From DATKZS01 sp035527835 [NCBI: bacterium] (lineage in GTDB: Bacteria > RBG-13-61-14): a stretch of DNA of 17,689 bases. The stretch is from NCBI GenBank assembly GCA_035527835.1, contig DATKZS010000226.1, positions 1 through 17,689 on the forward strand. The letters are read 5' to 3'. Shown here in pieces: positions 1 through 17,689 of the stretch. Made by a program: the position numbers and the translations under genes. Numbering within the stretch: the first letter of the stretch is position 1; each line of letters begins with the position of its first letter. The notes under the pieces are model-generated. The model was given only the letters and a program-made list of their open reading frames with translations. It made no database searches and was not told the origin of the DNA.

Positions 1-217
1 CATGCACTTCGGCCCGGAGGAGGTGCTGTTGAACATGGGGATTATTTTCCGGCCGGAGCTGACGGCCACGGAGGTCGCGGAGGCGGTGGACCGGCTGGAG
101 AAGGCGATCCGGGAGAGGCACCCGGAGATCCGGTACATATATTTAGAGACGAAGGCGCTGTACCGGGAGCAGGAGGGGAAGAAGTACGAGTACGGGAGCG
201 GGGCGGGGAGGCAGTGA
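1..217 (+). CDS. Cation diffusion facilitator (CDF) C-terminal end, partial
   Basis: Only the last ~71 codons are in the window; the gene begins upstream, so the first ATG seen (position 2) is an internal Met. The residues MHFGPEEVLLNMGIIF, followed by an amphipathic helix (EVAEAVDRLEKAIRERHPEI) and a strand with YIYLE, match the cytoplasmic C-terminal domain of CDF transporters. This is a ferredoxin-like domain that dimerises and binds regulatory metal in Zn2+/Fe2+/Mn2+ exporters. The membrane part, which would show the metal-coordinating residues, is outside the window, so the metal cannot be named. The last ~14 residues are charged and Gly-rich, which looks like an untemplated tail. The codons ATA and TTA near 136-143 are uncommon for this GC-rich DNA. 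The family call is fairly sure; substrate is unknown. Confidence 0.8.
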   Translation, partial: MHFGPEEVLLNMGIIFRPELTATEVAEAVDRLEKAIRERHPEIRYIYLETKALYREQEGKKYEYGSGAGRQ

Positions 218-238
218 GGGCGCCGGCGTACTCGGAGA

Positions 239-268
239 AGACGCGGGTGAGGGCACCCGCTCCCCTTT
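239..268. repeat. Dispersed hairpin repeat, copy 1
   Basis: A perfect stem GCGGGTG (243-249) / CACCCGC (254-260) with loop AGGG is followed by TCCCCTTT. The same 30 bases occur at 872-901, and the core occurs again at 932-958. It lies just after the CDF gene and could act as a weak terminator or an RNA-processing site, but the T tract is short. The rest of the 218-331 gap shows nothing else I can support. Confidence 0.7.
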
Positions 269-331
269 AACGACTGCGGCGGGGCTGCGCACAGAGCAGA
301 GCTATGTGGGCCATCCGGGGAGGGGCGCGCG

Positions 332-883
332 GTGGAGGGAAAGGTGAAAATATTGGGGATCGCGGGGAGCCTGCGGCAGGGGAGTTATAACCGGGCGCTG
401 CTCCGGGCTGCCGCCGAGCTCTTGCCGGAGGGGGCGGGGCTAACGATTTTTGATCTCGAGGGCATCCCGCCGTTCAACCAGGACCTGCTCGCTAGCATGC
501 CGGAGCGGGTGAAGGCGCTGAAGGCGGCGGTGCGGGCGGCGGACGCGGTGCTGTTCGCGACGCCGGAGTACAACTACTCGGTGCCGGGGGTGTTGAAGAA
601 CGCGTTTGACTGGGGCACTCGGCCAATGGAGGATAACTGCTGGGTGAGGAAGCCGGCGGCGATCATGGGCGCGTCCACGGGGCGGATGGGGACGGTGCGG
701 GCGCAGATGCACCTTAGGCAGTGCTTCATTTACATGGACATGCCGGTGGTGAACAAGCCGGAGGTGATGGTGAGCATGGCGGCGGATAAGTTCGACGCGG
801 AGGGGAAGCTGATTGACGAGGAGACGCGCAAGTTGGTGGCGCAGCTTGTGGAGAGCCTGGTGGAATTGGCGAGACGCGGGTGA
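332..883 (+). CDS. NADPH-dependent FMN reductase-family flavoprotein
   Basis: The 183-residue protein has the flavodoxin-like fold of the NADPH-dependent FMN/azo/chromate reductase family, which typically reduces FMN, quinones or other small acceptors in the cytoplasm. The phosphate-binding loop near the N-terminus reads GSLRQGSYNRAL (about residues 12-23). The flavin-contacting motif PEYNYSVPGVLKNAFDW lies at about residues 81-97, and a further Gly-rich segment (GASTGRMGTVRAQ) at about 112-124. Length is normal for the family. The start is GTG at 332, preceded by a purine-rich GGGGAGGGG stretch; no ATG in frame is better placed. It stands 129 bp before the ThDP enzyme pair on the same strand and could supply or use electrons with them, but that is inference. 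Its stop codon and last few residues lie inside hairpin repeat copy 2. Confidence 0.88.
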   Translation: MEGKVKILGIAGSLRQGSYNRALLRAAAELLPEGAGLTIFDLEGIPPFNQDLLASMPERVKALKAAVRAADAVLFATPEYNYSVPGVLKNAFDWGTRPMEDNCWVRKPAAIMGASTGRMGTVRAQMHLRQCFIYMDMPVVNKPEVMVSMAADKFDAEGKLIDEETRKLVAQLVESLVELARRG

Positions 884-901
884 GGGCACCCGCTCCCCTT
901 T
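872..901. repeat. Dispersed hairpin repeat, copy 2 (overlaps a stop codon)
   Basis: Stem GCGGGTG (876-882) and CACCCGC (887-893) with loop AGGG, then TCCCCTTT. It is identical over 30 bases to 239-268. The TGA of the flavoprotein gene (881-883) is inside the left arm and loop, so the repeat supplies the end of that reading frame. Confidence 0.75.
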
Positions 902-931
902 GGGCGAGGGGCTGGGGAAGGGTGAGAAGGC

Positions 932-958
932 GCGGGTGAGGGCACCCGCTCCCCTTTT
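932..958. repeat. Dispersed hairpin repeat, copy 3
   Basis: Stem GCGGGTG (932-938) / CACCCGC (943-949), loop AGGG, followed by TCCCCTTTT. It lies 56 bp downstream of copy 2. The linker between them (902-931) is G-rich and pairs partly with the CCCC of copy 2, so copies 2 and 3 may belong to one larger composite element in the leader of the ThDP operon. Confidence 0.7.
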
Positions 959-975
959 GGCGATGGGCTGTGAAA

Positions 976-991
976 GGCGGGAAGGCCCGCC
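976..991 (+). promoter_or_regulatory. Short hairpin in the leader of the ThDP enzyme pair
   Basis: GGCGGG (976-981) and CCCGCC (986-991) form a perfect 6-bp stem with loop AAGG. It ends 9 bases before the AGGAGA ribosome site (1001-1006) of the next gene. It is not followed by a T tract, so a terminator is unlikely. A role in translation or RNA stability is only a possibility. Confidence 0.35.
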
Positions 992-1012
992 GATTGTTAA
1001 AGGAGACGATCC

Positions 1013-2848
1013 ATGGGGGAACAGGTGAATGGCGCGGGGCTTCTGCTGCAGGCGATGCTGCGGTGCGGGGTGGACCACGTGTTCGCGGTGGAGAGCGAGG
1101 CGGCGGGTCCGGCGCTGGCGGCGCTGGATGCGGCGGCGGGCGATGATTTGGAGGTGGTGAAGGCGCGGGACGAGATCGCGGCGGCGGCGATGGCGGACGC
1201 GTTCACGTTCCGGTCAAAGAAGATCAGCGCGGTGGTTACGGGGAGCGGCGGCCGGTCGCTGGCGCAAGTGAGCGCGGTCACGAACGCGTGGGCGGACAAG
1301 ATACCGCTGCTTTCCATCTCGGTGTGCGACGACGACGCGCCGGACTTCAACAAGGGCGTTGACCGGCGGCGGTTCGACCAGACGGGCGTGTTCCGGGCGG
1401 TTACGAAGTGGCACGCGCGGGCGGAGGTCGTGGAGGACATCCCGGCGCTGATTATAAAGGGTCTGGCGGAGAGCGTGCGGGGCCGGATGGGTCCGGTGCA
1501 CATTGACATCCCGGCGCGGCTGCTCCGCGAGGCCGCGGATGTTGACCTGTTCGCGGGGCTGACGGAGGGCGCGCGGCCGGCGTTCGCGCCGAGGCGGCTC
1601 CGGCCGGACCCGGCGCTCGTGGAGAAGGCGGTGGATGAGCTGTTCCAGGCGCGGCGGCCGCTGTGCTTCATCGGGGCCGGGGTGATGCGGTCGGGCGCGG
1701 AGGCCACGCTGGCGGCGTTCCTCACCAAGACCGGCATCCCGGTGACCACCAGCATGGCGGGGATGGGCGGGGTGTCGTCGGACCACGAGTGTTTTATCGG
1801 CGGACCCAGCTACGCGGCGGGCGAGGCGTTCCACCGGGCGATCAAGAAGGCGGACTGCGTGCTGGCGCTGGGCACGGCGTTCGGGGGGCTGGAGGGCTTC
1901 GGCAAGCCGCCGCTGTGGAACGGCCGGATCAAGTTCATCCACGTTGATATAGACCCGCTGCAGATCGGGCTCAACGTGAGCCCGGCCGTGCCGGTGCAGG
2001 CGGACGTGAACACGTTCCTCACTGAATTGGCGGCCGCGATGGAGCGGCACAACTTCCGGACGCCGGCGGCCTGGGGAGAGTGGCGGTCTGAGCTCCTGGC
2101 TCTGAAAAAGGGCCGTTACGCGCGGCTGCTCAAGGAGGCTTACCGCGACTGGCCCGCGATCCACCAGGGCCGGCTGGCGCATGAGCTGGGCAAGAAGGTC
2201 GCCCAGGACGATCTCCTGATGGTGATTGACGGCGGCAACACGGCGCTGTACGCGGCGATGTACGCGCCGCCGCTAAAGCCGGGCCAGAGCTTTTTCCCCT
2301 ACGGGATGGCGGCGCTGGGCGCGGGGGTGCCGGCGGCGGTGGGGATGCAGCTCGCGTCTCCGGAGCGGCGGGTGATGTTGTGCACGGGCGACGGGAGCAT
2401 GCTCTACAACGTGCAGGAGCTGGAGACGATCGCGGACCGGGGCCTGCCGATCATGATCGTGGTCAACAACGACTCGGCCTGGAACATGATCCGGTGCGCC
2501 CAGACCTCGATGTACGCGTGCAACTACATCGGGACGGACCTGCCCGACATTGACTACGCCCAGATCGCCAAGGGCTTCGGGTTCCATGCCGAGACCGTGA
2601 CCAGGGCCGCCGAGATCGTGCCGGCCTACGAGCGGGCGCGTGACTCGGGCGGGCCCGCGCTCGTCAACGTGGTCACGGACAAGACCAACTACCCGGACGC
2701 GGTGATCAGCTTCGCGCTGGTCGAGTTCGACGGGGTGGAGCTGGACCCGGGGAACCTGCTCAAGGGCTTCTGGCGGAGCCGGTCGGACGGTTTCGCGCGG
2801 GCGGCCGAACGCGTGGCGTACATCTACAAGAGCTTTATCTCGGGGTGA
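1013..2848 (+). CDS. Thiamine diphosphate-dependent enzyme, acetolactate synthase-like, subunit 1
   Basis: The 611-residue protein has the three-domain layout of the acetolactate synthase/benzoylformate decarboxylase superfamily. The N-terminal PYR domain has catalytic Glu54 in KARDEIAAAAMADAF. A central Rossmann-like domain (~200-350) includes FIGAGVMRSG and IHVDIDPLQIG. The C-terminal PP domain has the Mg/ThDP signature GDGS at 459-462 and NN at 485-486. The ALS-like 'KW' strand and GPVHIDIP are also present. It should decarboxylate or ligate a 2-oxo acid or acyl-CoA in the cytoplasm; the substrate cannot be read, and ilvB is not justified because no regulatory subunit or other ilv gene is nearby. 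The ATG has AGGAGA six bases upstream. The gene is followed 10 bp later by a degenerate paralogue, which suggests co-expression and perhaps one complex. Confidence 0.88.
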   Translation: MGEQVNGAGLLLQAMLRCGVDHVFAVESEAAGPALAALDAAAGDDLEVVKARDEIAAAAMADAFTFRSKKISAVVTGSGGRSLAQVSAVTNAWADKIPLLSISVCDDDAPDFNKGVDRRRFDQTGVFRAVTKWHARAEVVEDIPALIIKGLAESVRGRMGPVHIDIPARLLREAADVDLFAGLTEGARPAFAPRRLRPDPALVEKAVDELFQARRPLCFIGAGVMRSGAEATLAAFLTKTGIPVTTSMAGMGGVSSDHECFIGGPSYAAGEAFHRAIKKADCVLALGTAFGGLEGFGKPPLWNGRIKFIHVDIDPLQIGLNVSPAVPVQADVNTFLTELAAAMERHNFRTPAAWGEWRSELLALKKGRYARLLKEAYRDWPAIHQGRLAHELGKKVAQDDLLMVIDGGNTALYAAMYAPPLKPGQSFFPYGMAALGAGVPAAVGMQLASPERRVMLCTGDGSMLYNVQELETIADRGLPIMIVVNNDSAWNMIRCAQTSMYACNYIGTDLPDIDYAQIAKGFGFHAETVTRAAEIVPAYERARDSGGPALVNVVTDKTNYPDAVISFALVEFDGVELDPGNLLKGFWRSRSDGFARAAERVAYIYKSFISG

Positions 2849-2858
2849 GGAGGCGGTG

Positions 2859-4397
2859 ATGGCGAAGATGACGGGCGGCGACCTACTGGTGCAGTGCCTG
2901 GCCGGGCATGGGGTCAAGTATATATTTTCGATCATCGGCGGGCAGATGTGCTCGGTGTACGAGGCGGCGCGGGTGCGGCCGGAGATCGCGCTGGTGACGT
3001 TGCGCAACGAGGCGGCGGCCCCGGTGATGGCGGGAGGCTACGCGGCGGCGTCGTGGATTCCGGCGGTCTCGATGTGCACGGTGGGCGCGGGCGTGGTGTA
3101 CGAGGTGGCGGGCCTGATGGACGCGTGGATGAGCTATTTGCCGGTGATCTCGATCGCGCCGCAGGTGCAGAGCTGGAAGATGAAGCCGCACCAGGAGAAC
3201 CTGCAGGGCATGAACCAGGACGAGATTTTTTATCCGATCACCAAGTGGAACGCGATCGTGTACCACTGGGAGCGCATCCCGCAGATGGTGGCGCGGGCGC
3301 TCCGGGAGGCCCGGGCCAACGCGCCGGGCCCGGTGCACCTGGACCTGCCGGTGGACGTGCTGTTCAAGACCGGGAAGCCGAGCGATAAAAAGATGCGGGA
3401 GCTCATGCCGCCGCCGGAGACCACCCGTTTCAGCGGGGCGCTCCCGGGCACGGAGGACGAGGTCAAGGCGGGGATCGAGGCGGTGCGGGCGGCCCGGCGG
3501 CCGGTCGCGCTGATCGGCCAGGCCATGGGCACGGCGGGGCGGTACGAACAGATGGCGGAGCTGCTGAACGCGGCGGGCCTGCCGGCGCTCACGGCGCGGT
3601 CGAGCTCGAGCGCGATGAGCGGAAAGGACGGGTGCTTCGCGGGTCCGCTCGGGCTGTTCATGGAGAGCGGGACCGGGCGGGCGATCCTGGAGCAGGCCGA
3701 CGCGCTGGTCGTCGTCGGCATTGACCCGGAGATCATGGACGCGCTCAAGGCGCTCACGGGCTTTGGCGGGACCACGGTGCAGGTGGAGGTTGACCCGTCG
3801 GCGGTGCTGACCGGGAGGGCTAAGCACGTCGGGGTGAACGCGGACCCGGTGTCGTTTTTCAAGCGGCTCGACGCGGGCGAGGGGCGATGGAAGGAGTGGG
3901 CGGGAAAGGTGAGAGAGGCGCGGGAGGCCATCGTCGCCGATGAGAAGAAGAACATTCCTGATGCGGCGCTGTACGAGGGACTGGCGCTTGCGGTGAAAGA
4001 TGATGACGTGCTGGTGGTTGACGGCAAGGCCCCGGCGCGGGCGGCCCGGGCGCTGCTCGCCAACAACCGGCACCACCGCCTCTTCATCATGAACCACCGC
4101 GACATGGCGGGCCCGGGCCTGCCCTTCGCCATCGGCGCCAGGCTCGCGCTCCCCGCAAACCCCGTGACCCTCATCACCGACCTCGATTCCCTGATGCGCC
4201 ATCCCCAGGAGCTCAAGACCGCGGAAGGCCTCGGCCTGGACGTGCGCATCGTGGTGACCGACCCGGGCCGGGACCAGCGCCACGCGCGGACGGAGGCGGT
4301 CCTCGGCGGATTGGGGTGCGAGATAAATACGTTGCGGCCCGGCACAGGCCCGGACCGGGAGAAGCGGAAGCGGCCGTCGGCGTGGCTGGTGCAGTAG
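2859..4397 (+). CDS. ThDP enzyme paralogue with degenerate cofactor site, subunit 2
   Basis: This 512-residue protein has the same three domains as its upstream neighbour. The PYR domain is well preserved, with Glu51 in LRNEAAAPVMAGGY and the conserved run ending in ITKW. The central domain has VVVGIDPEIM and VQVEVDPS. The PP domain aligns well (LPFAIGARLALP), but the GDG...NN signature is replaced by DLD (441-443) and TD (467-468). The metal-binding Asp position is Leu. The protein therefore probably cannot bind Mg/ThDP itself. In this superfamily an active site is built from the PYR domain of one subunit and the PP domain of the other, so it may donate its Glu to the PP domain of the first protein in a heterodimer (inference). 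ATG at 2859 was chosen because AGGAGG (2848-2853) is five bases away; a GTG three bases earlier would be too close. Confidence 0.85.
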   Translation: MAKMTGGDLLVQCLAGHGVKYIFSIIGGQMCSVYEAARVRPEIALVTLRNEAAAPVMAGGYAAASWIPAVSMCTVGAGVVYEVAGLMDAWMSYLPVISIAPQVQSWKMKPHQENLQGMNQDEIFYPITKWNAIVYHWERIPQMVARALREARANAPGPVHLDLPVDVLFKTGKPSDKKMRELMPPPETTRFSGALPGTEDEVKAGIEAVRAARRPVALIGQAMGTAGRYEQMAELLNAAGLPALTARSSSSAMSGKDGCFAGPLGLFMESGTGRAILEQADALVVVGIDPEIMDALKALTGFGGTTVQVEVDPSAVLTGRAKHVGVNADPVSFFKRLDAGEGRWKEWAGKVREAREAIVADEKKNIPDAALYEGLALAVKDDDVLVVDGKAPARAARALLANNRHHRLFIMNHRDMAGPGLPFAIGARLALPANPVTLITDLDSLMRHPQELKTAEGLGLDVRIVVTDPGRDQRHARTEAVLGGLGCEINTLRPGTGPDREKRKRPSAWLVQ

Positions 4398-4403
4398 TAA
4401 ATA

Positions 4404-4684
4404 ACCCCTTCGGGGTACAATCGTGGCGCGTCGCGGGTATTCCCAGGGTAGCCCCGCCGATGGCGGGTCAACCCTGGGCTACGTTAAAGATGCCCCGTTG
4501 GGGCAGGAGAGACATTGAACCTGTTGACCCCGTGCGTATTACCATTTAGGAGCGTCGGTGTTGCGAGGGATAAATCCCGATTTTTCGAGAACCCCGTTGA
4601 AACGGGGTCCTGGGGGAAGCGATGCGGCGGCTTACCCGCGCTAAAGCACGGGCCTGCACCAGGGCCAAGGCCGGTGAACCGGCC
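4404..4684. repeat. Composite array of short hairpins
   Basis: Six inverted repeats stand in a row in a gap with no credible gene. They are: ACCCC/GGGGT (4404-4416); CCCAGGGT/ACCCTGGG (4442-4449 with 4471-4478) enclosing CCCGCC/GGCGGG (4453-4467); GCCCC/GGGGC (4492-4504); ACCCCGTT/AACGGGGT (4591-4608); CCCGCGCT/AGCACGGG with one mismatch (4635-4652); and GGCCGGT/ACCGGCC (4669-4684). Several have very short A-rich centres (TGAA, AA, GA). The layout resembles the multi-hairpin intergenic repeats (REP/BIME-like) found in many environmental bacteria; it could be transcribed from the ThDP operon as a 3' tail. Short reading frames across it look like chance translations of the repeats. Confidence 0.6.
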
Positions 4685-4755
4685 TGAAAAGTCAGGAGAG
4701 CGGCGACGCGATCGGCAATGGGCCTGAGCGGGCGGCTCCGCGAATCGGTACTCTC

Positions 4756-4771
4756 CGGCATTGCGAAAAAA
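4756..4771. repeat. 16-bp direct repeat, left copy (flanks cyclophilin pair)
   Basis: CGGCATTGCGAAAAAA here recurs with one change (CGGCATTGCAAAAAAA) at 6676-6691, on the other side of the two cyclophilin genes. Function unknown. Confidence 0.45.
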
Positions 4772-4800
4772 CAGCCGCAGGCGCCCGGGCGCGAGGAAAA

Positions 4801-4830
4801 GGCCGCGGGTGGGGGCACCCACGGCCCTTT
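4801..4830. terminator. Hairpin repeat, copy 4; possible terminator between convergent genes
   Basis: GGCCG and GGGTG (4801-4811, one mismatch between them) pair with CACCC and CGGCC (4816-4826) around the loop GGGG, and CTTT follows. It belongs to the same family as the hairpins at 243, 876 and 932 but with an extended stem. It stands between the convergent ThDP operon and cyclophilin genes, where a terminator would be expected. The T tract is too short to be confident of intrinsic termination. Confidence 0.45.
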
Positions 4831-4881
4831 GTCGGCCGCACGTGACAAGAAGCAAGAAGCGGGCGGCTGTGGCGTTTTTGC

Positions 4882-5613
4882 TCAGAGTCCTTCGATGTAG
4901 ACCTTTTTCATGATCTGTGGTTCGATGGGCCGGTCGCCGGGTCCGGTGCGGGATGAGCCGATCTGGTGGACGACGTCCATGCCTGAGGAGACCTGTCCGA
5001 AGACGGTGTATTTGCGGTCGAGCTTGGGTTGGGGCGCGAGGCAGATGTAGAACTGGCTGCCGGCGGAGTTGGGGTCGGCGGAGCGGGCCATGGCCACGGT
5101 GCCCTCCAGGTGCTTCTGGTCGCCGAACTCGGCCTTGACGGAGTAGCCGGGTCCTCCGCTCCCGTTGCCGATGGGGTCTCCTCCCTGGATCATGAATCCG
5201 TCAATGATGCGGTGGTAGGTGAGTCCGTCGTAGAAGCGGGACTGGGCGAGCTTGATGAAGTTCTTGCAGGTCTCGGGGGCGACCCGAGGATAGAACTTGA
5301 ACCTGATGGTCCCGCGGTTGGTCTCGATCACGGCGGTGAGGTTTTCCATCGAGGCCGGTGTCAGGTCCTTGACCTTGGCGTCCCAGAGCTCGCGCAGCGC
5401 CTCCTTGGCCTCCTGGGCCTTGGGGCCTGCGGGGTAGTTGTCAAGATAAGCGTCGTAGGCGGCGGGGCTCTGGTCCTTCTCGGCGCGGGCCCATTGGTCG
5501 GGCTCGGCGAGCTTGGGCACGGCCTCGTTCTTGGCGGCCTCGTCCTTGTGACAGGCCGGCTGGCAGATCCCGGCGGCCAGGACCAGGGCGAGCAGCACAA
5601 TTGTCCTTTTCAT
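4882..5613 (-). CDS. Exported cyclophilin-type peptidyl-prolyl isomerase (active-site residues present)
   Basis: This 243-residue protein starts with a signal sequence (MKRTIVLLALVLAAG) with two cysteines at 17 and 21. The lipobox is imperfect, so it may be a lipoprotein or be cleaved by signal peptidase I. Residues ~40-75 hold one helical repeat with the pattern AYDAYLDNYPAGPKAQEA. The cyclophilin domain (~93-243) follows, with YHRIIDGFMIQGGDP (Arg135, Phe140, Gln143) and SAGSQFYICL, the residues that bind and isomerise Xaa-Pro bonds. It should help fold envelope proteins. Its ATG overlaps the stop of the upstream cyclophilin gene (ATGA), so the two are translationally coupled. AGGGAGG-type ribosome sequence lies inside the end of that gene. 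Confidence 0.9.
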   Translation of the reverse strand: MKRTIVLLALVLAAGICQPACHKDEAAKNEAVPKLAEPDQWARAEKDQSPAAYDAYLDNYPAGPKAQEAKEALRELWDAKVKDLTPASMENLTAVIETNRGTIRFKFYPRVAPETCKNFIKLAQSRFYDGLTYHRIIDGFMIQGGDPIGNGSGGPGYSVKAEFGDQKHLEGTVAMARSADPNSAGSQFYICLAPQPKLDRKYTVFGQVSSGMDVVHQIGSSRTGPGDRPIEPQIMKKVYIEGL

Positions 5614-6503
5614 TTTTCATCCTCCCTTGATTCTTCGTTTTCGGGTTCTTCCTGATTGACCTGAACGCGGTCCCAGTTGAGCTCGATGCCGGAGACCTCG
5701 AGCTTCTTGATGTAAATGGTTTCGAGCGGCTTCCACGCGGGCGATCCCTTCGCGCCGGTGGTCTCGACGTTTCCGATGCGGTCGAGCACGTCCATGCCGG
5801 ATTGGACACGGCCGAACACGGTATAAGAGCCGTCCATCTCGGGCAGGTCCCGGAGGCAGATAAAGAACTGGCTGCCGGCGGTGTCGGGGTCCACGGGCAG
5901 CCGCCACATGGATACGGCGCCGCGGGTTTGCTTATTTTCGTTGATTTCCGCGGTGATCATGTAGCCGGGTCCTCCGAAGCCGTTGCCGAGGGGGTCGCCC
6001 ATCTGGACGATCTTCCCGTCAATAACGGGGCTTACGGTGAGGCCAATGTAGAAGTGGATCCAGGCGAGATAGAGAAGGTTGCGGCAGGTGGCGGGGGCCC
6101 GGACCGGATCGAGGGAAAGGGTAAAGGACCCGAGCGAGGTTCCCACGATGACGCGGGCGGCCGCCATTTCCCCGGCCGTGAGCTGGTCCGCCTTGGCGCG
6201 ATAGAGCTTCTTGATGTTGGCGCGGGCCTTGTCCGCCTTTTTCCCCCGCGGGAAGTCTTGGAGGTAGCGGCGGTAGGCCTCGGGCGTTTTTTGTTTGTAA
6301 GCGTCCATGAAGGAAAGATGGTCAATCCCGGCCCAGGCCCTCTGGGCGTGCTCTCCCTGGGGATATTTTTGGAGGTACTCTTGATAGCCCTCGACAGTTT
6401 TTTTCCGGCGGGTCTTTTCCCATTCCTTCCGCTCGCACCCGGCCAGACAGAGCATGACCAGGGCCAAGGCGAGGACGGTGATTATCGCGTAACGCTGTCG
6501 CAT
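5610..6503 (-). CDS. Cyclophilin-like lipoprotein with altered active site
   Basis: The 297-residue product begins with a clear lipoprotein signal, with lipobox LAGC and Cys23. It then has two helical repeats of the type YQEYLQKYPQGEHAQRA (~37-56) and AYRRYLQDFPRGKKADKA (~76-93), and a cyclophilin domain (~115-275). The fold markers GDPLGNGFGGPGY and TAGSQFFICL are intact. In the active-site strand, however, the His-Arg pair is Ser158-Pro159 and the following Phe is Lys164, so the catalytic Arg is missing. It may bind prolines or proteins without isomerising them, which is inference. The start at 6503 was preferred over an in-frame ATG 48 bases further upstream because only it begins with a proper signal peptide and has GTGAGG just upstream. 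It overlaps the next cyclophilin gene by four bases. Confidence 0.87.
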   Translation of the reverse strand: MRQRYAIITVLALALVMLCLAGCERKEWEKTRRKKTVEGYQEYLQKYPQGEHAQRAWAGIDHLSFMDAYKQKTPEAYRRYLQDFPRGKKADKARANIKKLYRAKADQLTAGEMAAARVIVGTSLGSFTLSLDPVRAPATCRNLLYLAWIHFYIGLTVSPVIDGKIVQMGDPLGNGFGGPGYMITAEINENKQTRGAVSMWRLPVDPDTAGSQFFICLRDLPEMDGSYTVFGRVQSGMDVLDRIGNVETTGAKGSPAWKPLETIYIKKLEVSGIELNWDRVQVNQEEPENEESREDEK

Positions 6504-6522
6504 GGGCCTCACTTTCGGGGTT

Positions 6523-6551
6523 ATTCTCCCTGCATAGACTCCGGCTGTCAA
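6523..6551 (-). promoter_or_regulatory. Candidate promoter of the cyclophilin operon
   Basis: Read on the minus strand, TTGACA (6551-6546) is a perfect -35 box, followed after 17 bases by GAGAAT (6528-6523), a 4-of-6 match to the -10 box. Transcription would start about 13 bases before the ATG at 6503. The weak -10 is the main doubt. Confidence 0.4.
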
Positions 6552-6559
6552 CCCGGAGT
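6538..6559. promoter_or_regulatory. Inverted repeat over the cyclophilin -35 box (possible operator)
   Basis: ACTCCGG (6538-6544) and CCGGAGT (6553-6559) are perfect arms separated by 8 bases that contain most of the TTGACA -35 box. The placement is what a repressor or activator site would look like. No regulator is encoded next to it. Confidence 0.35.
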
Positions 6560-6643
6560 TCCGGCCGGGGTTCCAGGAGCAGGGCGTGAAGGGCGATTTT
6601 CACGGGCGGCCGAGGGCGGCGATGCCGGCCGCGGCCGGGGCGC

Positions 6644-6672
6644 TTGACCGGGGCGGCCAGAGTGACTATGCT
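6644..6672 (+). promoter_or_regulatory. Weak candidate promoter, plus strand
   Basis: TTGACC (6644-6649), 17 bases, then TATGCT (6667-6672). It points toward the hairpin at 6776-6803 and the response regulator gene beyond. No coding region starts directly downstream. Confidence 0.25.
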
Positions 6673-6675
6673 ATG

Positions 6676-6691
6676 CGGCATTGCAAAAAAA
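6676..6691. repeat. 16-bp direct repeat, right copy
   Basis: CGGCATTGCAAAAAAA, 15 of 16 identical to 4756-4771; see that entry. Confidence 0.45.
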
Positions 6692-6745
6692 TTTTCCGGG
6701 CTTGCCTTTTCGGGCGGGATGCGGTTTCATGCGGGATAAAGTGGA

Positions 6746-6781
6746 GTGAGCGAGCGGGTGAGCGAGCGGGTGAGCGAGCGG
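6746..6781. repeat. Three perfect tandem copies of a 12-mer
   Basis: The unit GTGAGCGAGCGG is repeated at 6746, 6758 and 6770 without any change. The last unit merges with the left arm of the hairpin at 6776. Perfect identity suggests recent slippage. A reading frame through it would give a low-complexity ERAG repeat and is not believed to be a gene. Confidence 0.8.
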
Positions 6782-6803
6782 CTGGGGGCAGCCGCTCCCC
6801 TTT
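6776..6803. terminator. Hairpin repeat, copy 5; possible terminator
   Basis: GAGCGGCTG (6776-6784) and CAGCCGCTC (6789-6797) form a perfect 9-bp stem with loop GGGG, followed by CCCTTT. The layout equals the hairpins at 243, 876 and 932 although the stem bases differ in a compensating way. It could end plus-strand transcripts before the response regulator gene. Confidence 0.45.
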
Positions 6804-6871
6804 AGCGGCAGCTCGACATTAGTGCAGCCGCTTCGCTTTTTGCCGGTCCGAGTGTCCTTGGCGCATCCGGG

Positions 6872-6900
6872 CTGACAAGGCGGTAAAATCCGGATATATT
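6872..6900 (+). promoter_or_regulatory. Candidate promoter of the REC-GGDEF gene
   Basis: CTGACA (6872-6877), 17 bases, TATATT (6895-6900): each box matches the sigma-70 consensus at 5 of 6 positions. Transcription would begin near 6907, about 17 bases before the ATG, leaving room for the ribosome site GAGG (6912-6915). Confidence 0.55.
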
Positions 6901-6923
6901 AGGTGGGCCAAGAGGCTTAAGCC

Positions 6924-7841: not shown

Positions 7842-7887
7842 GGGGCGGTGCATAAACGTTGCGGCACGGCGTCGGGCGATTGGTTTC

Positions 7888-10626: not shown

Positions 10627-10691
10627 CCGGGCCGCCTCCGCCCGAACGCTCATCGAAATCAACCCCGCCCTGCTCAACCGCCCGGGAACCA

Positions 10692-10708
10692 GCCGCGAAG
10701 CTCGCGGC
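10692..10708. terminator. Hairpin after the dapAB operon
   Basis: GCCGCGA (10692-10698) / TCGCGGC (10702-10708) with loop AGC is a perfect 7-bp stem located 66 bp beyond the last stop codon. No T tract follows, so Rho-independent termination is uncertain; it may be another dispersed repeat. Confidence 0.3.
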
Positions 10709-10761
10709 AAGCCAGTTGTGCGATGTGAATATAGCCGGCGGGTATGGAATCTCCCGCGATT

Positions 10762-10770
10762 TGCTATAAT
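10762..10770 (+). promoter_or_regulatory. Extended -10 promoter of the hydrolase gene
   Basis: TGC followed by the perfect consensus TATAAT (10765-10770). No good -35 box lies 16-18 bases upstream, as is normal for extended -10 promoters. The transcript would start near 10777 and carry a leader of about 130 bases that includes the palindromic element at 10791-10877. Confidence 0.5.
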
Positions 10771-10790
10771 GACTTCGTTCCGAGGAAGTG

Positions 10791-10877
10791 GTGTGGGAGT
10801 GCCCTTCCGGGCACGATCCGTGTTCTTGCGTCGGGCGCTCTTCCGCGAAGATCGCGCCCGGAAGGGCGCTCCCACGC
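10791..10877. mobile_element. 87-bp MITE-like palindromic element in the hydrolase leader
   Basis: Two 28-base arms (10791-10818 and 10850-10877) are reverse complements at 25 of 28 positions, separated by 31 bases. Each arm also folds on itself: GTGCCC/GGGCAC around TTCC on the left, GCGCCC/GGGCGC around GGAA on the right. No coding capacity exists, and target-site duplications are not clear. It looks like a non-autonomous, REP-like or MITE-like repeat. Confidence 0.6.
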
Positions 10878-10905
10878 ATGGATTGAATCGAGGAGAGGTA
10901 AAACA

Positions 10906-11826
10906 ATGAATCGGGTAAGAATCTCACGTCGTTTGCAGGCGGTTGCGATACTGCTGCTCTTCGCGGCCGTGCTGGCGGCGCCGGCCGCGGCGGAGAGGGC
11001 CTTTACGCCCGCGCCTTATTACTCGCCGGAGCAGTGGCTCACCATCGGCGGCGCGAAGATCTGTTACCTGGATGAGGGCCAGGGCGAGGCCATGGTGCTG
11101 GTGCACGGGTGGGCGGGCAACGCCTGGAACTGGGAGAGCGTGTTCGGTCCGCTTTCCGAGCATCATCGGGTGGTCGTGGTGGACCTGCCGGGCCACGGCA
11201 AGAGCGGGTGCCCGGAGGGGTTCGGCTACACCATGCCCGGGCTCGCGGACTTAGTGGTCCAGGTGATGGACGAGCTGAAGATCGAGAAGGCCACGGTGGC
11301 CGGGTCCTCGATGGGCGGCGCGGTCACGGCGTGGGTGGCGATCCGCCATCCGGACCGGGTGGACCGGCTGATCCTGGTGGACGCGGCCGGGACCGGCATC
11401 CAGAACAATCTCATGAAAATGGCCGGCCATCTCATGACGCCTTCCACCGTGATCCCGCTCATCCACCTCGTGTTCCCGGTGAATGAAAAACGCCAGGCCG
11501 CGGTGCCCGTCTCCGAGCGGAAACGGGTCGTGCTCGCCGAGGAGCTCTACGCGAGCGGCCGGAAAAAATGCGCGGCGCTCGCGCTGGCGCGGACGATGAA
11601 GAGCATCAGCAAGGACGTCGTGGACGACCGTCTGGCGGCCGTCACCGCGCCCACGCTGGTGATCTGGGGCTCCGACGACGGGCTCCTGCCCCGCGCCGCC
11701 GGCGAGTTCTACCGCGACCACATCCCCGGCGCGACCATGGTCATCGTCCCGGGCGGCAACCACACGCCCATGCAGTGGCAGCCCGATGAATTCCTGCGCG
11801 TGGTGAATGAATTCATGGCGGAATAG
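10906..11826 (+). CDS. Exported alpha/beta hydrolase
   Basis: The 306-residue protein starts with a signal peptide (hydrophobic 12-25, likely cleavage at APAAA near 29). It then has a complete alpha/beta hydrolase fold: oxyanion loop VHGWAGNAWNW (66-76), DLPGHGKSG (93-101), nucleophile Ser135 in AGSSMGGA, acid Asp258 in WGSDDGLLP, and His286 in GGNHTPM. This is the pattern of small-molecule esterases, C-C hydrolases and haloalkane-type enzymes; the substrate cannot be told. The ATG at 10906 was chosen because AGGAGAGG stands seven bases before it and the signal peptide begins there. An in-frame ATG 162 bases upstream would translate the palindromic element and the promoter. The gene is probably monocistronic and converges on the YfhO-like gene. 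Confidence 0.9.
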   Translation: MNRVRISRRLQAVAILLLFAAVLAAPAAAERAFTPAPYYSPEQWLTIGGAKICYLDEGQGEAMVLVHGWAGNAWNWESVFGPLSEHHRVVVVDLPGHGKSGCPEGFGYTMPGLADLVVQVMDELKIEKATVAGSSMGGAVTAWVAIRHPDRVDRLILVDAAGTGIQNNLMKMAGHLMTPSTVIPLIHLVFPVNEKRQAAVPVSERKRVVLAEELYASGRKKCAALALARTMKSISKDVVDDRLAAVTAPTLVIWGSDDGLLPRAAGEFYRDHIPGATMVIVPGGNHTPMQWQPDEFLRVVNEFMAE

Positions 11827-11853
11827 TTTGTGGTTTGTGGTTTGGGGTTTGTG
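11826..11853. repeat. Four tandem 7-mers between convergent stop codons
   Basis: GTTTGTG, GTTTGTG, GTTTGGG, GTTTGTG in a row. The run starts on the last base of the hydrolase stop (TAG, 11824-11826) and ends two bases before the opposing stop (TAA, 11857-11855). It fills the whole gap. The strands are strongly biased (G/T on plus, C/A on minus). Confidence 0.8.
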
Positions 11854-11854
11854 G

Positions 11855-14485
11855 TTATAAGAACGGGGACCGCAAGGATAGTCCGTGCATTGCGCCTAAA
11901 AATACGATGACAAAAAGGCAAGCCAGCGCCGCCCACAAGGCCACCCGGAACGATACCGGCTCATAAATAAACTCGACCACCGATTTCCCCTCCGGCACCG
12001 GGACCGCGCGCAGGCCGTGAGCGGTCTTCGCGATCCTCGTTTCCTCGCCGGCCACCAGTGCGCGCCAGCCTGGGTAATAGGCATCGGCCAGGACCAGTAA
12101 GCCGGTGCCATCGGCCGCGGCCCGGCATGACACCCGCTGCAAGCCGTAGCGCTCAATTGCAGAGCTTCCCCGGCCCGGACGTTCCAGCTCCGGCGCTCCC
12201 GCATCCGCGAGAAAGACCCGCGGCCCCGCCGGTTCGTCCTTATACAACCGGAAGCCGTTCGCCATCTCGTCGGACGGCCGCCGGCCATCGCCCGCCCTGA
12301 CGTCGCCCCAGGCCGCCCAGTCGTGCTCGATGGATGCGGCCGGCAAGGTGGCCAGGGTCAGTCCTATTTCCGCCTGCGCCCGCAGCTCAATGTTTTTCCA
12401 CGAGCGGTCGCCCGGTTGTTGGCGCGAATCAATATAGAGCGCCCAGAGCAGCGACGGACCCATCTCTCTTGACAGGGCCATGAACCAGACGCCGTCTCCC
12501 GCGAGATTCTTGACGCGCGGATCGAGGCCTGCCGAGAAGGAGACGGAGACGGGGCCGGCGCCGGAGCTCTTCATGCCGAGATCATCGGGAATGAGTCTGA
12601 TGGCGCCGGGCGGGTGCGCGAAGATGGCCTCGCGCTCGTCGTCGGCGATGGTCATTCTGACCTTGGCGAAATGCGCGGGGGAAGGCGCGGCCAGCTCGGC
12701 GCGGGACATGATGGCGTCAATGGTTTTATTCGCGGGCAGGGGGAGCCGGGTAAGGCGGTGGCGCAAGCCGATCAGGCGCGAGAGCGGGGAATCAAGAGCG
12801 TCGAGCGGGACGCGCAGGGAATGGTAGCGGGTGAATTCATGGTAAAGAGTGTCGCCGGACAGGCCGGAGACGGCGCTGAACAGGTCCACGCTGTCCCGGA
12901 TGATGAGGCCGTCGGCAAGTCCGAACTCGAAGGCGGGGACCAGCAGGCCCTGGTTGGGGACCATGACGTTGTCGGAGGCGATGAAGCGGGCGTAGGCATC
13001 GTCCTTGCCGATCATGCGCTTGATGGCCGCGAAGTCCTCGCGCGCCATGTTGCGGAACATGAAGGGGCGGTTGACGGCGGAGGCGGAGACCAGATCGAGG
13101 ACGACGAGCGCGATGAGGGCGGCGGACAGCGCGCGCGCTCCGCGCGGCCCCGGGGCCTTGACCGATGCGAGCGCGATCAAGGCGGCGGACCCGGCCAGCG
13201 CGATGAGGAGAAGGACCGCGCCGTTCATGTCGCGCGCGGTCTCGGCAAGTTCGGGGTGGATCAGGGCGCAGGCGGCGACGGCCGCGCCGATAAGAATGAG
13301 CGCTGACGCGGCCACTCGGAGCCGGCCCTGCCCGCGCCGGAGCTCATCGGTCATGCTCGCGGCGAGGAAGGCGGCCGAGAAGGCGATGAGCGGCTGGATG
13401 TACTTGATGAAGGTGAGGAAGGCAAGGCCGGGCAGGCGCGGGATGAGATCGAAGAGCGGCAGTCCGGCGAGCACGCCGAGCGAAAAGGCGAGAACGGCGG
13501 CGAAGAAGGCGTCAGGGGCGCGGCGCGGCCGGAGCGCGGCGGCGAGGGCGAGGGCCGCGGGCGCGGCGCCGAGGTAGGGCGCGATGCGGATGAGCGGCAG
13601 GACTTTTTGCGCCTGATCCAGCGGGCCGTAAAAGCCGGGCGCGATCAGGGTGATGAGCCCGGAAGGCGGCAGGTGCTCGGCGCCGAAGCCGGCCTGGTGA
13701 AAGGTCCAGGCCTGCGGCATGAACTCGAAGAAGGGCAGGAGCTGGGGCAGCGAGACGATGGAGGCGATGATTGCCGCGGCCGCGATCAGCGCGAGCGTCC
13801 CCATGCGGCGCGGCGTGGCGGCAAAAAAAATAAAGAGCGCGTAGCCATAGCCGAGCGCCAGGGTGAAGATGGCGGCGCCGGGCTGGCCGCCGAGGATGAC
13901 GAGAGCGGAGGCGGCGCTCATCAAGATGACGTCAATGAGGCGTCGGTTTTTGATGAGGCGGTGGGCGGCGACGAGGAGCCAGGGGATGAGGAGGTCAATC
14001 ACGATGTTCTGGTCGTTCACGTACTGGACGAGGTATCCGGTGAGGCCGAAGCTGATCGCGGCCACGGTCGCCGCTGACTTGCTGAGCCCGAGGCGGCGGC
14101 CGAAGACGTACGCGCCCCACCCGGCAAGCGCGAGCCGCGCGAAGAGATAAGGCACGGCCAGCGCCTCGATCGGCCCGAAGGTGAGCGGCCAGAGCAGCGG
14201 CGAAAACACCGCCGACTGATAGCCGGCGACCAGCGGCGTGCCGAGCAGGTTATACGGGTTCCACAGCGGGAACAGGCCCAGGCTCCAGCTCATCAGGTCC
14301 AGGCGCAGGAAGGGGTAGCCGTACGTGATGGGGTTGATGTCGCGATAGGCTTTGAAAAAAAGATCGGCGCCGGAGAAAAGGTCGGCATGGAAGATGACGA
14401 CGAGCGCGGCCAATAGAATAATGAGCACGCGGGCGTGGTCCGCGGGCCGGTCCGGGCGGAGGTTATGGGCGATCTTTTCCGACAT
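11855..14485 (-). CDS. YfhO-like multi-pass membrane protein
   Basis: The 876-residue product has a long N-terminal region of about a dozen hydrophobic helices (~18-480), a soluble, probably periplasmic domain (~500-830) and a final helix (WAALACLFVIVFLGAM). The loop after the first helix carries FFKAYRDINP and PLWNPYNLLGTPLVAGYQ (72-90). This is typical of the YfhO family, GT-C-like membrane proteins linked to glycosylation of lipoteichoic or other surface polymers in Firmicutes; in other phyla the role is unproven. The start is taken as ATG 14485, with CCAGGAG just before it. ATG 14503 is possible, but the candidate promoter would make it leaderless. The longest open frame, back to 14590, translates a dispersed repeat (LICVHLWF) and should not be used. 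Confidence 0.85.
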   Translation of the reverse strand: MSEKIAHNLRPDRPADHARVLIILLAALVVIFHADLFSGADLFFKAYRDINPITYGYPFLRLDLMSWSLGLFPLWNPYNLLGTPLVAGYQSAVFSPLLWPLTFGPIEALAVPYLFARLALAGWGAYVFGRRLGLSKSAATVAAISFGLTGYLVQYVNDQNIVIDLLIPWLLVAAHRLIKNRRLIDVILMSAASALVILGGQPGAAIFTLALGYGYALFIFFAATPRRMGTLALIAAAAIIASIVSLPQLLPFFEFMPQAWTFHQAGFGAEHLPPSGLITLIAPGFYGPLDQAQKVLPLIRIAPYLGAAPAALALAAALRPRRAPDAFFAAVLAFSLGVLAGLPLFDLIPRLPGLAFLTFIKYIQPLIAFSAAFLAASMTDELRRGQGRLRVAASALILIGAAVAACALIHPELAETARDMNGAVLLLIALAGSAALIALASVKAPGPRGARALSAALIALVVLDLVSASAVNRPFMFRNMAREDFAAIKRMIGKDDAYARFIASDNVMVPNQGLLVPAFEFGLADGLIIRDSVDLFSAVSGLSGDTLYHEFTRYHSLRVPLDALDSPLSRLIGLRHRLTRLPLPANKTIDAIMSRAELAAPSPAHFAKVRMTIADDEREAIFAHPPGAIRLIPDDLGMKSSGAGPVSVSFSAGLDPRVKNLAGDGVWFMALSREMGPSLLWALYIDSRQQPGDRSWKNIELRAQAEIGLTLATLPAASIEHDWAAWGDVRAGDGRRPSDEMANGFRLYKDEPAGPRVFLADAGAPELERPGRGSSAIERYGLQRVSCRAAADGTGLLVLADAYYPGWRALVAGEETRIAKTAHGLRAVPVPEGKSVVEFIYEPVSFRVALWAALACLFVIVFLGAMHGLSLRSPFL

Positions 14486-14506
14486 GGCTCCTGGGTCCGT
14501 CATACC

Positions 14507-14535
14507 ATTGTATTTTCGGAGCGGCCCGGGCGCAA
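14507..14535 (-). promoter_or_regulatory. Candidate promoter of the YfhO-like gene
   Basis: On the minus strand TTGCGC (14535-14530), 17 bases, TACAAT (14512-14507, 5 of 6 to consensus). The start site would fall at about 14500, which supports translation from 14485 rather than from further upstream. Confidence 0.45.
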
Positions 14536-14567
14536 TTCGGCTGGGCGGAGGCGACGATTCAGGGAAC

Positions 14568-14597
14568 CACAGATGAACACAGATTAACACGGATTCG
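14568..14597. repeat. Dispersed 10-bp periodic repeat (cacagatgaa type)
   Basis: CACAGATGAA, CACAGATTAA and CACGGATTCG follow one another, the third degenerate. This 'cacagatgaacacagat' text is a common dispersed intergenic repeat in bacterial genomes. It lies between the divergent YfhO-like and glycosidase-like genes and, when translated on the minus strand, creates a false N-terminal extension. Confidence 0.6.
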
Positions 14598-14623
14598 GAC
14601 CAGATGATTTGAGGGCGGCAAAG

Positions 14624-14632
14624 TGCAATAAT
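14624..14632 (+). promoter_or_regulatory. Possible extended -10 of the glycosidase-like gene
   Basis: TGC followed by AATAAT (14627-14632), about 50 bases before the ATG at 14685. No convincing -35. It is listed because the TGC extension recurs before three other genes in the window. Confidence 0.3.
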
Positions 14633-14684
14633 GGTGCGGGCTGCGCGGGGAGCGGTGAATCTCGGCGGTTACGGGAGGTTTGAC

Positions 14685-17057
14685 ATGAACAAGGCGGGGA
14701 ATCGGAGGTCGTGGTCAGTGGCGCTGGGGCTCATGGCGGGTGTTTTTTTGGTGAGCGCGGCGGCGGGCCCTGGTCCGGGGAAGCCCCGGCCGCGGGTCAC
14801 GGACCTGGTGAACACGGTGGTGCGGAACGCGCTGGTCGGCGTGACCATGGACGCGATCCCGAAGCCGATGCTCGACCCGGCGCTTGACGACGGCGCGACC
14901 TTTTCCTATTTCGCGCGGCCGAGCTTTCAGATCGGGATCAGGGGCGAGCCGCGGGCGACGCAGGTCACGGACAACGGGCATTTGTGGACCGGCGCCGCCG
15001 AGTGGCTCGCGCTGGCCGGCGATCCGCTCGCGCCGGCCAACCAACGCATCTACACCCTTTACAAGGGATACCTGCCTTGCATCACCTATACGGTCGAGAG
15101 CGGCGGCGTGGCCTACACCGTGCGCGCCTTCCAGTACTGGCTCGATGGCGACTCGTTCGGCCAGTCGCCGCCCGTGAACTTCATCCGGATCACCGCGGAG
15201 AACCCAGGCGATAAGGAAGCCCAGGCGCGGTTCGCCGGCGGCTTCATGTACGGTCCGCGCGACCACCGCTCGCAGCAGATGCGGCAGATGAACTTCAACG
15301 CTTTCTGGAATTACGAGATGACGGAGCGGGCGGCCACGCGGGGCGGCAAGATCATTTACGCATGGGGCAAGAAGCCGGACACGCTGGAGTCGCGGGCGGG
15401 CAAGGCGTACCGGAAGGCGTTCGTCGGCGCGGGCCGGGAGGAGCCGGTGTGCCTCGCGGTGTATAAGAGGACGCTCGGGCCGGGTGAGAGCTTTTCGGCG
15501 GACTTTGCGATGCCGCACTACCCGGCGGACGCGGTCATGGCGCAGCGTCTGGCGGGGGCGGACTTTGATGAGAGGCTGGCCGCGATGGAGTCGTACTGGG
15601 AGGGGTGGCTCGGGCGGGGCGCGCATTTTAAGGTGGCGGAGCGGAAGGTGAACGACGCTTCGCGGGCGTACGTGATCCACTCGCTGATGAGCCAGAACGT
15701 AATCAGTGATGACGAGGTGGAGCAGCACGTGAACCGTTTCCAGTACAACCGGTTCTGGCTGCGCGACTCGTCGTTTTACGTATCGCTGTACGAGACGTGG
15801 GGGTATCCGGAGGTGGGCCGGGCGCTGGCGCGGCATTTTTATCCGTATCAGAGGGACGACGGCAATTTCCTGAGCCAGCGGGGCCAGCTTGACGGATGGG
15901 GCCAGAGCATGTGGGCGCTGGGCACGGTGGTCCGTTACACCGGCGACGTGGAGTTCGCCAAGGACGCGGTGCCGCGCGTGGAGGCGGCGGTGGGGTGGCT
16001 CGACACCGCGCTCACGAATGACGCGTGGGGCCTGATGCCGCCGACCGACGCGTTCGACAACGAGACGATCACGGGCCGTTACACCGGGCATAATTTCTGG
16101 GCGCTCACGGGCCTGGACGCGGCCATTGACCTGTGCCGGGCGGCGGGCCGCGACGACCTGGCGGAAAAATACGCTGAGCTGCGCGGCCGATATTATGACC
16201 GGTTCATGACGCGGCTTGGCGAGGTGGCGGCCCAGCGGGACGGGGTGATCCCGCCGGGCCTGGACGTTCCGGGCGGCACGGAATGGGGCAACCTGCTGGC
16301 GGTTTACCCGGGCCACATCATCGCCCCGTTCGATCCGCTGGTCACGGCCACGTTCGAGCACTACCGGCGCGACCGGATGCAGGAGGGCATCGGGATGTGG
16401 CACCAGAGCCTGCACCATTACCTCACGGAAAGGGTGGCCCAGACCATGCTGATCCGGGGCGAGCAGGAGCGCGCGCTCGACGATTTTTACGGCATGCTCC
16501 TGCACACGGGCGCGTGCCACGAGGGGTTCGAGTGGGCCATCTTTGCCTGGGACGGCCGCGACTACTGCCAGGGCGTGGGCAAGGTGCAGACGTGCAACTT
16601 CCCGCCGCACGGCTGGTACGCGGCCGATTTTGACCTGCTGTTGCGCAACATGCTGATACGGGAGGACGGCAAGGAGTTGCACCTTGCATCGGCGCTGTCA
16701 CCGGAGTGGACCAAGCCGGGCGACCGGATCACGGTGGAAAACGCGCCCACCTGGTTCGGGCCCGTCTCTTATGAGCTGTCGTTCTCCGAGACCTCCGCCA
16801 CGCTGGACCTCACCGGGTACTGGCGCAACGCGCCGGACTCGGTTACGTTCCACGTTCCGTATTTTCTCAAGCTCACGTCCGCCGCGGTTGACGGGAAGCC
16901 GGTGGCCCGGAGCGGCGGCGCGATCTCAATGCCTGCCGGGAGCCGGAAATTGACCATCGAGTTCGAACGCCTGGCGGTGGAGCCGAAGAGCTACGCGGCG
17001 GCGGTGGACCGCTACAAGAAGGAGTATCGGAGGCGGTGGGAGGAGCGGGGTCGCTGA
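14685..17057 (+). CDS. Secreted six-hairpin (alpha/alpha)6 glycosidase-like protein
   Basis: The 790-residue protein has a signal peptide (hydrophobic 12-27, AAA cleavage near 28). A beta-rich N-terminal domain (~30-300) follows, then an (alpha/alpha)6-barrel-like catalytic region (~320-670) and a short beta C-terminal domain (~680-770). The barrel shows FWLRDSSFYVSLYE (Arg360-Asp361), QRDDGNF with QLDGWGQSMWALG, GLMPPTDAFDNE, TEWGNLL, GIGMWHQSLHHY, CHEGFEWAIF and PPHGWYAADFDLLLRNML (His642). This pattern is shared by glucoamylase, GH63, GH78 and GH95-type enzymes; the exact family and catalytic Glu/Asp pair cannot be fixed by eye. It should cleave a glycan outside the cytoplasm. ATG 14685 has GGGAGG six bases upstream; an in-frame ATG 54 bases earlier gives no signal peptide. 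Confidence 0.85.
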   Translation: MNKAGNRRSWSVALGLMAGVFLVSAAAGPGPGKPRPRVTDLVNTVVRNALVGVTMDAIPKPMLDPALDDGATFSYFARPSFQIGIRGEPRATQVTDNGHLWTGAAEWLALAGDPLAPANQRIYTLYKGYLPCITYTVESGGVAYTVRAFQYWLDGDSFGQSPPVNFIRITAENPGDKEAQARFAGGFMYGPRDHRSQQMRQMNFNAFWNYEMTERAATRGGKIIYAWGKKPDTLESRAGKAYRKAFVGAGREEPVCLAVYKRTLGPGESFSADFAMPHYPADAVMAQRLAGADFDERLAAMESYWEGWLGRGAHFKVAERKVNDASRAYVIHSLMSQNVISDDEVEQHVNRFQYNRFWLRDSSFYVSLYETWGYPEVGRALARHFYPYQRDDGNFLSQRGQLDGWGQSMWALGTVVRYTGDVEFAKDAVPRVEAAVGWLDTALTNDAWGLMPPTDAFDNETITGRYTGHNFWALTGLDAAIDLCRAAGRDDLAEKYAELRGRYYDRFMTRLGEVAAQRDGVIPPGLDVPGGTEWGNLLAVYPGHIIAPFDPLVTATFEHYRRDRMQEGIGMWHQSLHHYLTERVAQTMLIRGEQERALDDFYGMLLHTGACHEGFEWAIFAWDGRDYCQGVGKVQTCNFPPHGWYAADFDLLLRNMLIREDGKELHLASALSPEWTKPGDRITVENAPTWFGPVSYELSFSETSATLDLTGYWRNAPDSVTFHVPYFLKLTSAAVDGKPVARSGGAISMPAGSRKLTIEFERLAVEPKSYAAAVDRYKKEYRRRWEERGR

Positions 17058-17059
17058 AG

Positions 17060-17089
17060 CGCGGGCTTTTCTTGTCGCGGGCTTTTCTT
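17060..17089. repeat. 14-bp direct repeat between genes
   Basis: CGCGGGCTTTTCTT occurs at 17060-17073 and again at 17076-17089. The T-rich ends could help terminate the glycosidase-like transcript, but no stable stem precedes them. Confidence 0.5.
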
Positions 17090-17117
17090 TGACGGTTTCC
17101 GGGCCGTATGCTAAATT
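17089..17117 (+). promoter_or_regulatory. Promoter of the B12-binding protein gene
   Basis: TTGACG (17089-17094, 5 of 6), 17 bases, TGC-extended TAAATT (17112-17117, 4 of 6). The start would be near 17124, just before AGGAG (17126-17130). Confidence 0.55.
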
Positions 17118-17139
17118 CAATTTTCAGGAGAGTTATCGG

Positions 17140-17689
17140 TTGCGGGTGGCGCTCATATTCCCCCGGGTGCGGGAGCAGGTGCACGGCATGTGGCCTCCGC
17201 TCGGGATCATCACGCTGGGGACGGTCCTGCGCGACGTCGGCCACGAGGTGTGGCTGTTCGATTCGAGCTTCGATCCCGGCCCCGAGCGGGTGATCTCCGA
17301 GCTCGGTCGGATCAGGCCGCAGGCCGTGGGCGTGTCGTGCCTCACCGACTTTTTTGCGAACGCCGCGAAGATCGTGGCCGCGGCCAAGGGCCTGGGCGCG
17401 GTGACGCTGATGGGCGGTCCGCACCCGACCATCGCGCCGGAGGCGACGCTGTGCGCCATCCCGGAGCTGGATTACGCGGTGATGGGGGAAGCGGAGCGGA
17501 CGCTGCCCCGCCTGCTCGCGGCGATTGACGGCGGCGGCGACGGGCGGGAGCTCCCGGGGCTGGCGCTGCGCGACGGGGAGGGCGTGCTGGTGACGGGGCC
17601 GGCGGAGATGATCGCGGACCTGGACTCGCTTCCGATCCCCGACCGCGACCTGCTCGACGTGATGGGCCAGTACCTCCGGGCGCGGGCCA
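17140..17689 (+). CDS. B12-binding domain protein, probably radical SAM, 3' end outside window
   Basis: The first 183 residues are open to the window edge. They form a cobalamin-binding-like Rossmann domain: RVALIFPRV, a short WPPLGIITLGTVLRDVGHEVWLFD segment, VGVSCLTDF, VTLMGGPHPTIAPEATL and YAVMGEAERTLPRLL, then a linker with LPIPDRDLLD. This order is the N-terminal half of B12-dependent radical SAM enzymes such as BchE-like or hopanoid-modifying proteins. The CxxxCxxC cluster motif would lie after the window, so that part is inferred from the family. The only plausible start is TTG 17140, nine bases after AGGAG, with a GTG two codons later as a weaker choice. The DxHxxG motif of true B12 mutases is absent, as is common in this family. 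Confidence 0.82.
   Translation, partial: MRVALIFPRVREQVHGMWPPLGIITLGTVLRDVGHEVWLFDSSFDPGPERVISELGRIRPQAVGVSCLTDFFANAAKIVAAAKGLGAVTLMGGPHPTIAPEATLCAIPELDYAVMGEAERTLPRLLAAIDGGGDGRELPGLALRDGEGVLVTGPAEMIADLDSLPIPDRDLLDVMGQYLRARA

Follow-up and report, generated by a model that had tools for sequence, protein, structure and literature searches.

Systems of the XamI and SalI type recognise GTCGAC, and the site of AccI is GTMKAC. The degenerate form RTCGAY is listed among the sites of Bifidobacterium breve UCC2003 in a paper citing Bottacini 2018 (PMC12592239), so that a statement in the first-pass annotation of the DNA studied here, that no named enzyme has exactly this site, is outdated. M.BbrUII of the same strain is described as a 5mC methyltransferase and a homologue of M.HgiDII (PMC5867850), itself a 5mC enzyme with the site GTCGAC (PMC5867850, PMC6329791), and BbrUII is presumably the RTCGAY enzyme of UCC2003. 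Avoidance of their sites is established for orthodox Type II systems, and is described as commoner for those that are long resident (PMC4687349). Among the papers listed on palindromes and their avoidance in Acidobacteria, and on restriction-modification in Chloracidobacterium, no title or abstract opening reports a gap at RTCGAY.

The window, meaning the whole stretch of 17,689 nucleotides that was analysed, contains no RTCGAY at all. Its 72 TCGA words (1..17689, unstranded) divide into 36 YTCGAY, 22 RTCGAR, 14 YTCGAR and 0 RTCGAY, against 11 of the last expected with independent flanks (Fisher p = 4e-9). These figures match exactly the flank counts and expectation of the first-pass annotation, which had put the TCGA total at about 70. 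Codon usage was held constant in 12 hand-picked CDS of the window, 15,174 b in total and spanning 332..17057 (forward strand: 332-883, 1013-2848, 2856-4397, 6924-7841, 8125-8997, 8997-9812, 9841-10626, 10813-11826 and 14631-17057; reverse strand: 4882-5613, 5610-6551 and 11855-14590). In 500 synonymous-codon shuffles of these genes RTCGAY was expected 25.4 times (sd 3.3, minimum 14) and it was observed 0 times, while the sister forms were normal (YTCGAR 12 vs 12.9 expected, RTCGAR 22 vs 22.2). Among 416 palindromes tested in the window RTCGAY was the most depleted by z, the runner-up being GTAC (31 vs 50.9). One palindrome is depleted beyond codon and composition bias, as in Type II site avoidance; the depletion is real, and a strong footprint of a known kind.

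The gap shapes codon choice in two reading frames. Across the 12 CDS, the 21 Ile-Asp pairs use ATT (17) or ATA (4) and never ATC, which bears out an earlier reading of 18 and 4 among 22 pairs. Ile-Glu pairs use ATC in 13 of 16 cases and ATT in 3; the earlier reading had given ATC in about 12 of 13. GTC is likewise absent from the 23 Val-Asp pairs (14 GTG, 8 GTT and 1 GTA), and the single GTA had also been noticed before. The stretch ATAGACATAGAC (7458..7469, forward strand), within the gene for a GGDEF protein (6924-7841), holds two Ile-Asp pairs, both written with the rare ATA and not ATC; of four quoted coordinates that were checked this one was exact, and the other three were off their codon pair by one or two bases. 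Serine before a codon starting with AC or AT is never TCG after a purine (0/11) and is TCG in 8 of 16 cases after a pyrimidine. Because TCG is avoided only after a purine, the gap is seen in this second frame as well, where the 11 serines in the forbidden context are written AGC (6) or TCC (5).

No restriction or methylation gene was recognised among the 12 CDS of the window (Pfam, 12/12; PADLOC, 10/12, without DapA and DapB); the gene content of 17058-17689 and of the intergenic parts was judged from the open-frame list alone. Two genes for TPP enzymes lie side by side at 1013-4397, and a relative of the second adjoins the relative of the first in at least 14 of the loci fetched with 1013-2848. 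The product of 14631-17057, of 808 aa, has no Pfam match, and relatives of it occur in 7 of the 142 genomes of one class at 1e-60. Its best match (41%) is in G078 and that of the window cyclophilin (51%) in G138, both members of this class, where GTCGAT is present hundreds to thousands of times in the majority of genomes. The DapA of the window had no match at 1e-85 among 297 Acidobacteriota genomes; it reached 2e-99 among 18 other genomes that were reached through loci. The matches of the 14631-17057 product and the cyclophilin suggest that the window may be related to the class of G078 and G138.

The first-pass annotation had proposed a test of relatives, and the same gap is present in several Acidobacteriota genomes, with 1 RTCGAY among 1070 TCGA in G016 against 181/674 in the control G282. 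A search with the TPP enzyme of 1013-2848 gave 71 loci of relatives, 7 of them without RTCGAY: three of these, titled Acidobacteria, hold 53, 104 and 48 TCGA, and the remaining four no more than 4 to 9 each. Across the 297 Acidobacteriota genomes, the density of GTCGAT spanned a range between a few copies and well above a thousand copies per Mb. Sampled avoiders, besides G016, were G150 (1 RTCGAY in 369 TCGA), G308 (3/349), G141 (7/645), G114 (5/358), G136 (2/273), G118 (0/97), G183 (0/90) and G069 (2/151); G114, G141 and G183 are taken here to be Chloracidobacterium, and Blastocatellia-like is a label given in this analysis to another group of avoiders. A second control, G033, had 185/834, and two more were partly depleted (G027, 54/364, odds ratio 0.22; G104, 91/596, odds ratio 0.35). 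Several genomes low in GTCGAT proved on sampling to be AT-rich or undepleted (G078 18/174, G138 24/118, G218 10/36). Within genes, which outside the window were greedy longest open frames, so that counts are approximate, RTCGAY observed and expected was 1 vs 230 in G016, 1 vs 104 in G150, 2 vs 73 in G308, 2 vs 52 in G136, 0 vs 20 in G118 and 11 vs 170 in a larger sample of G069; of the partly depleted controls, G027 had 48 vs 77 and G104 had 83 vs 97. RTCGAY and its member GTCGAC, and no other palindrome, had a ratio below 0.3 in all nine avoiding sets.

Most residual RTCGAY of the avoiders stand alone and scattered, though some form clusters, and inspection by eye showed no flank that they have in common. 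One lies within a tRNA (Rfam scan of 18 of 30 residual loci). The idea that the site is lethal was rejected, as single leftover sites lie in ordinary sequence, including that tRNA. Among eight 20-kb stretches of G058 the leftovers are clumped, with 9 RTCGAY each in L090 and L292 and 0 in L288, L290 and L294, and the clumped stretches are possibly recently acquired DNA. Other words are scarce in some of these genomes as well. The sampled genes of G016 (L054, L218 and L222-L231) are near-empty of CAGCTG (0 vs 74), CCCGGG (0 vs 58), CGGCCG (1 vs 142), CYCGRG (2 vs 152) and GRGCYC (2 vs 133). G069 carries an XhoI-family nuclease (L265:7100-7837) and has CTCGAG 2 vs 20, and a BsuBI/PstI-family nuclease is found in G141 (L273:7094-8053).

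The missing RTCGAY is likely to be the footprint of a long-resident Type II restriction system cutting this site in the lineage of the window. The first-pass annotation had proposed a cause of the restriction type, and 0 sites against 25.4 in the window, together with the same gap in relatives, support it well; restriction is the probable agent, and probably acted in the host of the window. Sites that escaped protection would be cut now and then, and base changes destroying them would be favoured until the genome was almost free of the site. A further reading, which seems doubtful though not far-fetched, is that several Acidobacteriota lineages inherited an ancient lack of RTCGAY, and that the site has been taken up there by one unrelated enzyme after another. 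If so, a new nuclease for the absent site would be harmless to its host, the empty site would decide which restriction systems settle, and restriction could operate almost or entirely without methylation. That divergent genomes are so nearly empty of the site raises the question of whether site-free genomes stably host restriction with little self-protection.

Decay of 5-methylcytosine in RTCGAY from C to T, without any restriction, is an improbable alternative. By such decay GTC-Asp would become GTT-Asp, and in the window GTT does make up 8 of 23 Val-Asp codons, when Val in its remaining contexts has 15 GTT altogether. A similar lean is seen in G136 (Val-Asp GTT 34, GTG 19, GTA 1; before Glu GTT 27, GTG 21, GTA 9) and, for Ile-Asp, in the Blastocatellia-like group (316 ATT and 22 ATA; before Glu 208 and 28); M.BbrUII and M.HgiDII are, moreover, described as 5mC enzymes (PMC5867850). 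Against this, Val-Asp in the Blastocatellia-like group has GTG 200, GTT 163 and GTA 51 (before Glu 101, 149 and 23), and in the Chloracidobacterium-like group GTG 196, GTT 58 and GTA 9 (before Glu 96, 128 and 16). In both large groups any allowed codon replaces the lost one, as selection against the site predicts. Serine in the forbidden context of the window is never the decay product TCA (0/11), and the odds of RTTGAY are only slightly raised (G016 1.34, window 1.08; four controls 0.88-1.17). The C5-cytosine methyltransferase family of BbrUII and HgiDII (PF00145) is absent at 1e-10 from 8 of the 11 strong avoiders searched, and present in G016, G183 and G308. The argument made earlier, that plain C-to-T decay does not account for the codons used, is thus upheld by two groups of relatives; the window, where GTC went mainly to GTT, does not by itself settle it. 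The relatives weaken the deamination reading, which keeps a small probability for the window; the GTT lean there and in G136 would also be given by decay, or by a more recent loss.

Selection against RTCGAY by an agent other than restriction, for instance a recombinase or a DNA-binding protein present in abundance, was likewise judged to have little probability. The gap is common to divergent genomes, several of which are without the candidate enzyme pair described below, and most leftover sites are scattered singles. However, the depleted site has the full degenerate palindromic form, and the same genomes are empty of other restriction-like sites, in places beside matching enzyme families, as with CTCGAG and the XhoI-family nuclease of G069. 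Somewhat less credence is given to a restriction system formerly present and now lost, with the gap as its trace. Such traces are described (PMC4687349), and an AccI-like nuclease is absent at 1e-5 from six avoiders (G016, G017, G150, G308, G136 and G118), but mutation would restore the sites, and a value as low as the 1 vs 230 of G016 points to pressure that is ongoing or recent. Chance or codon bias, for which only the short length of the window (17.7 kb) speaks, is refuted by the codon-preserving shuffles, 0 of 500 of which fell below 14 sites, and can be dismissed.

The first-pass annotation had proposed looking for a methyltransferase of RTCGAY specificity. A candidate was found beside a nuclease in six Acidobacteriota genomes, but at 1e-5 that nuclease is absent from the avoiders G016, G017, G150, G308, G136 and G118, which may have another enzyme, have lost theirs, or have assembly gaps. 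The families searched in avoiders were PF07669, PF00145 and the AccI-like profile, and in G118, G136 and G150 the PF07669 methyltransferase is also absent at 1e-5. At Eco57I-type methyltransferase loci of G114, G141 and G069, a nuclease of 320-335 aa lies beside a methyltransferase of 507-534 aa, and the methyltransferase of G183 is 99.6% identical to that of G141. The nuclease matches Pfam RE_AccI (PF09545) in G183 (2e-15), G114 (8e-19) and G069 (4e-14), and PADLOC REase_II at about 1e-16; the neighbouring methyltransferase in G114 and G183 matches PF07669 and PF02384. A PF09545 nuclease thus stands beside an Eco57I-like N6-adenine methyltransferase in G114, G183 and G069, and in G141 by profile.

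A profile of three of these nucleases matched 6 of the 297 genomes, namely G114, G141, G183, G069, G208 and G058. In the last two the nuclease is a divergent protein of 298 aa that shares 25-28% with the remaining ones and matches nothing in Pfam at 0.01, and opposite it lies a methyltransferase with 46-50% identity to its counterparts; the pair is oriented divergently, and its membership is by profile and neighbour only. All six carriers are among the 26 genomes lowest in GTCGAT density, a set picked by eye at below 70 GTCGAT per Mb with G015 outside the draw. The profile was seeded from avoiders, leaving only G058 and G208 as independent carriers, for which P is 0.005 or 0.075, as the two, with a common gene order and 74-75% identity, may count as one lineage. 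More telling is the site itself. Ranked by ratio, GTCGAC and RTCGAY come lowest of all palindromes in G208, and first and third lowest in G058; in all four pair-bearing lineages RTCGAY and its member GTCGAC are strongly depleted (ratio below 0.3), and no other palindrome is. G058 (27 vs 28) and G208 (28 vs 18) retain the forms of the AccI site apart from GTCGAC, and in G069 these are mildly reduced (26 vs 37). In sampled genes of the Chloracidobacterium-like genomes (G114, G141 and G183), GTMKAC is 0 vs 131, and a second system or plain AccI specificity is possible there. The AccI-related nuclease and N6-adenine (Eco57I-like) methyltransferase of the four Acidobacteriota lineages are predicted from sequence to recognise RTCGAY, a prediction about evenly balanced between right and wrong. 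A restriction specificity was predicted by counting words in raw sequence, which pointed in relatives to an AccI-related pair that is uncharacterised.

Plasmid searches with two of the nucleases returned one record each, the identical record, and in a PDB sequence search with the nuclease no hit was better than E 0.58. A Salinibaculum plasmid carries a distant gene of the AccI family that lends the pair no support and speaks against it, since RTCGAY makes up 55 of 267 TCGA there, which is no gap.

Compared with the described systems, the pair resembles the AccI family through the PF09545 matches of G114, G183 and G069 and the PF07669 and PF02384 matches of G114 and G183. It differs in that the nucleases of G058 and G208 have diverged too far for Pfam to match them, and in that G058, G208 and largely G069 keep the non-GTCGAC forms of GTMKAC. 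To XamI and SalI type systems it is linked by a plasmid sequence distantly homologous to the methyltransferase (25%), with a XamI-family nuclease annotated under the match, although RTCGAY is broader than GTCGAC. As in orthodox Type II avoidance, where short palindromes are depleted genome-wide under long-resident systems (PMC4687349), a short palindrome is depleted here, but the emptiness is near-total. Finally, set beside the 5mC enzyme M.BbrUII of B. breve (PMC5867850), 8 of 11 strong avoiders differ in having no PF00145 match at 1e-10, yet the RTCGAY listed for UCC2003 (PMC12592239) is exactly identical to the site avoided in the window.
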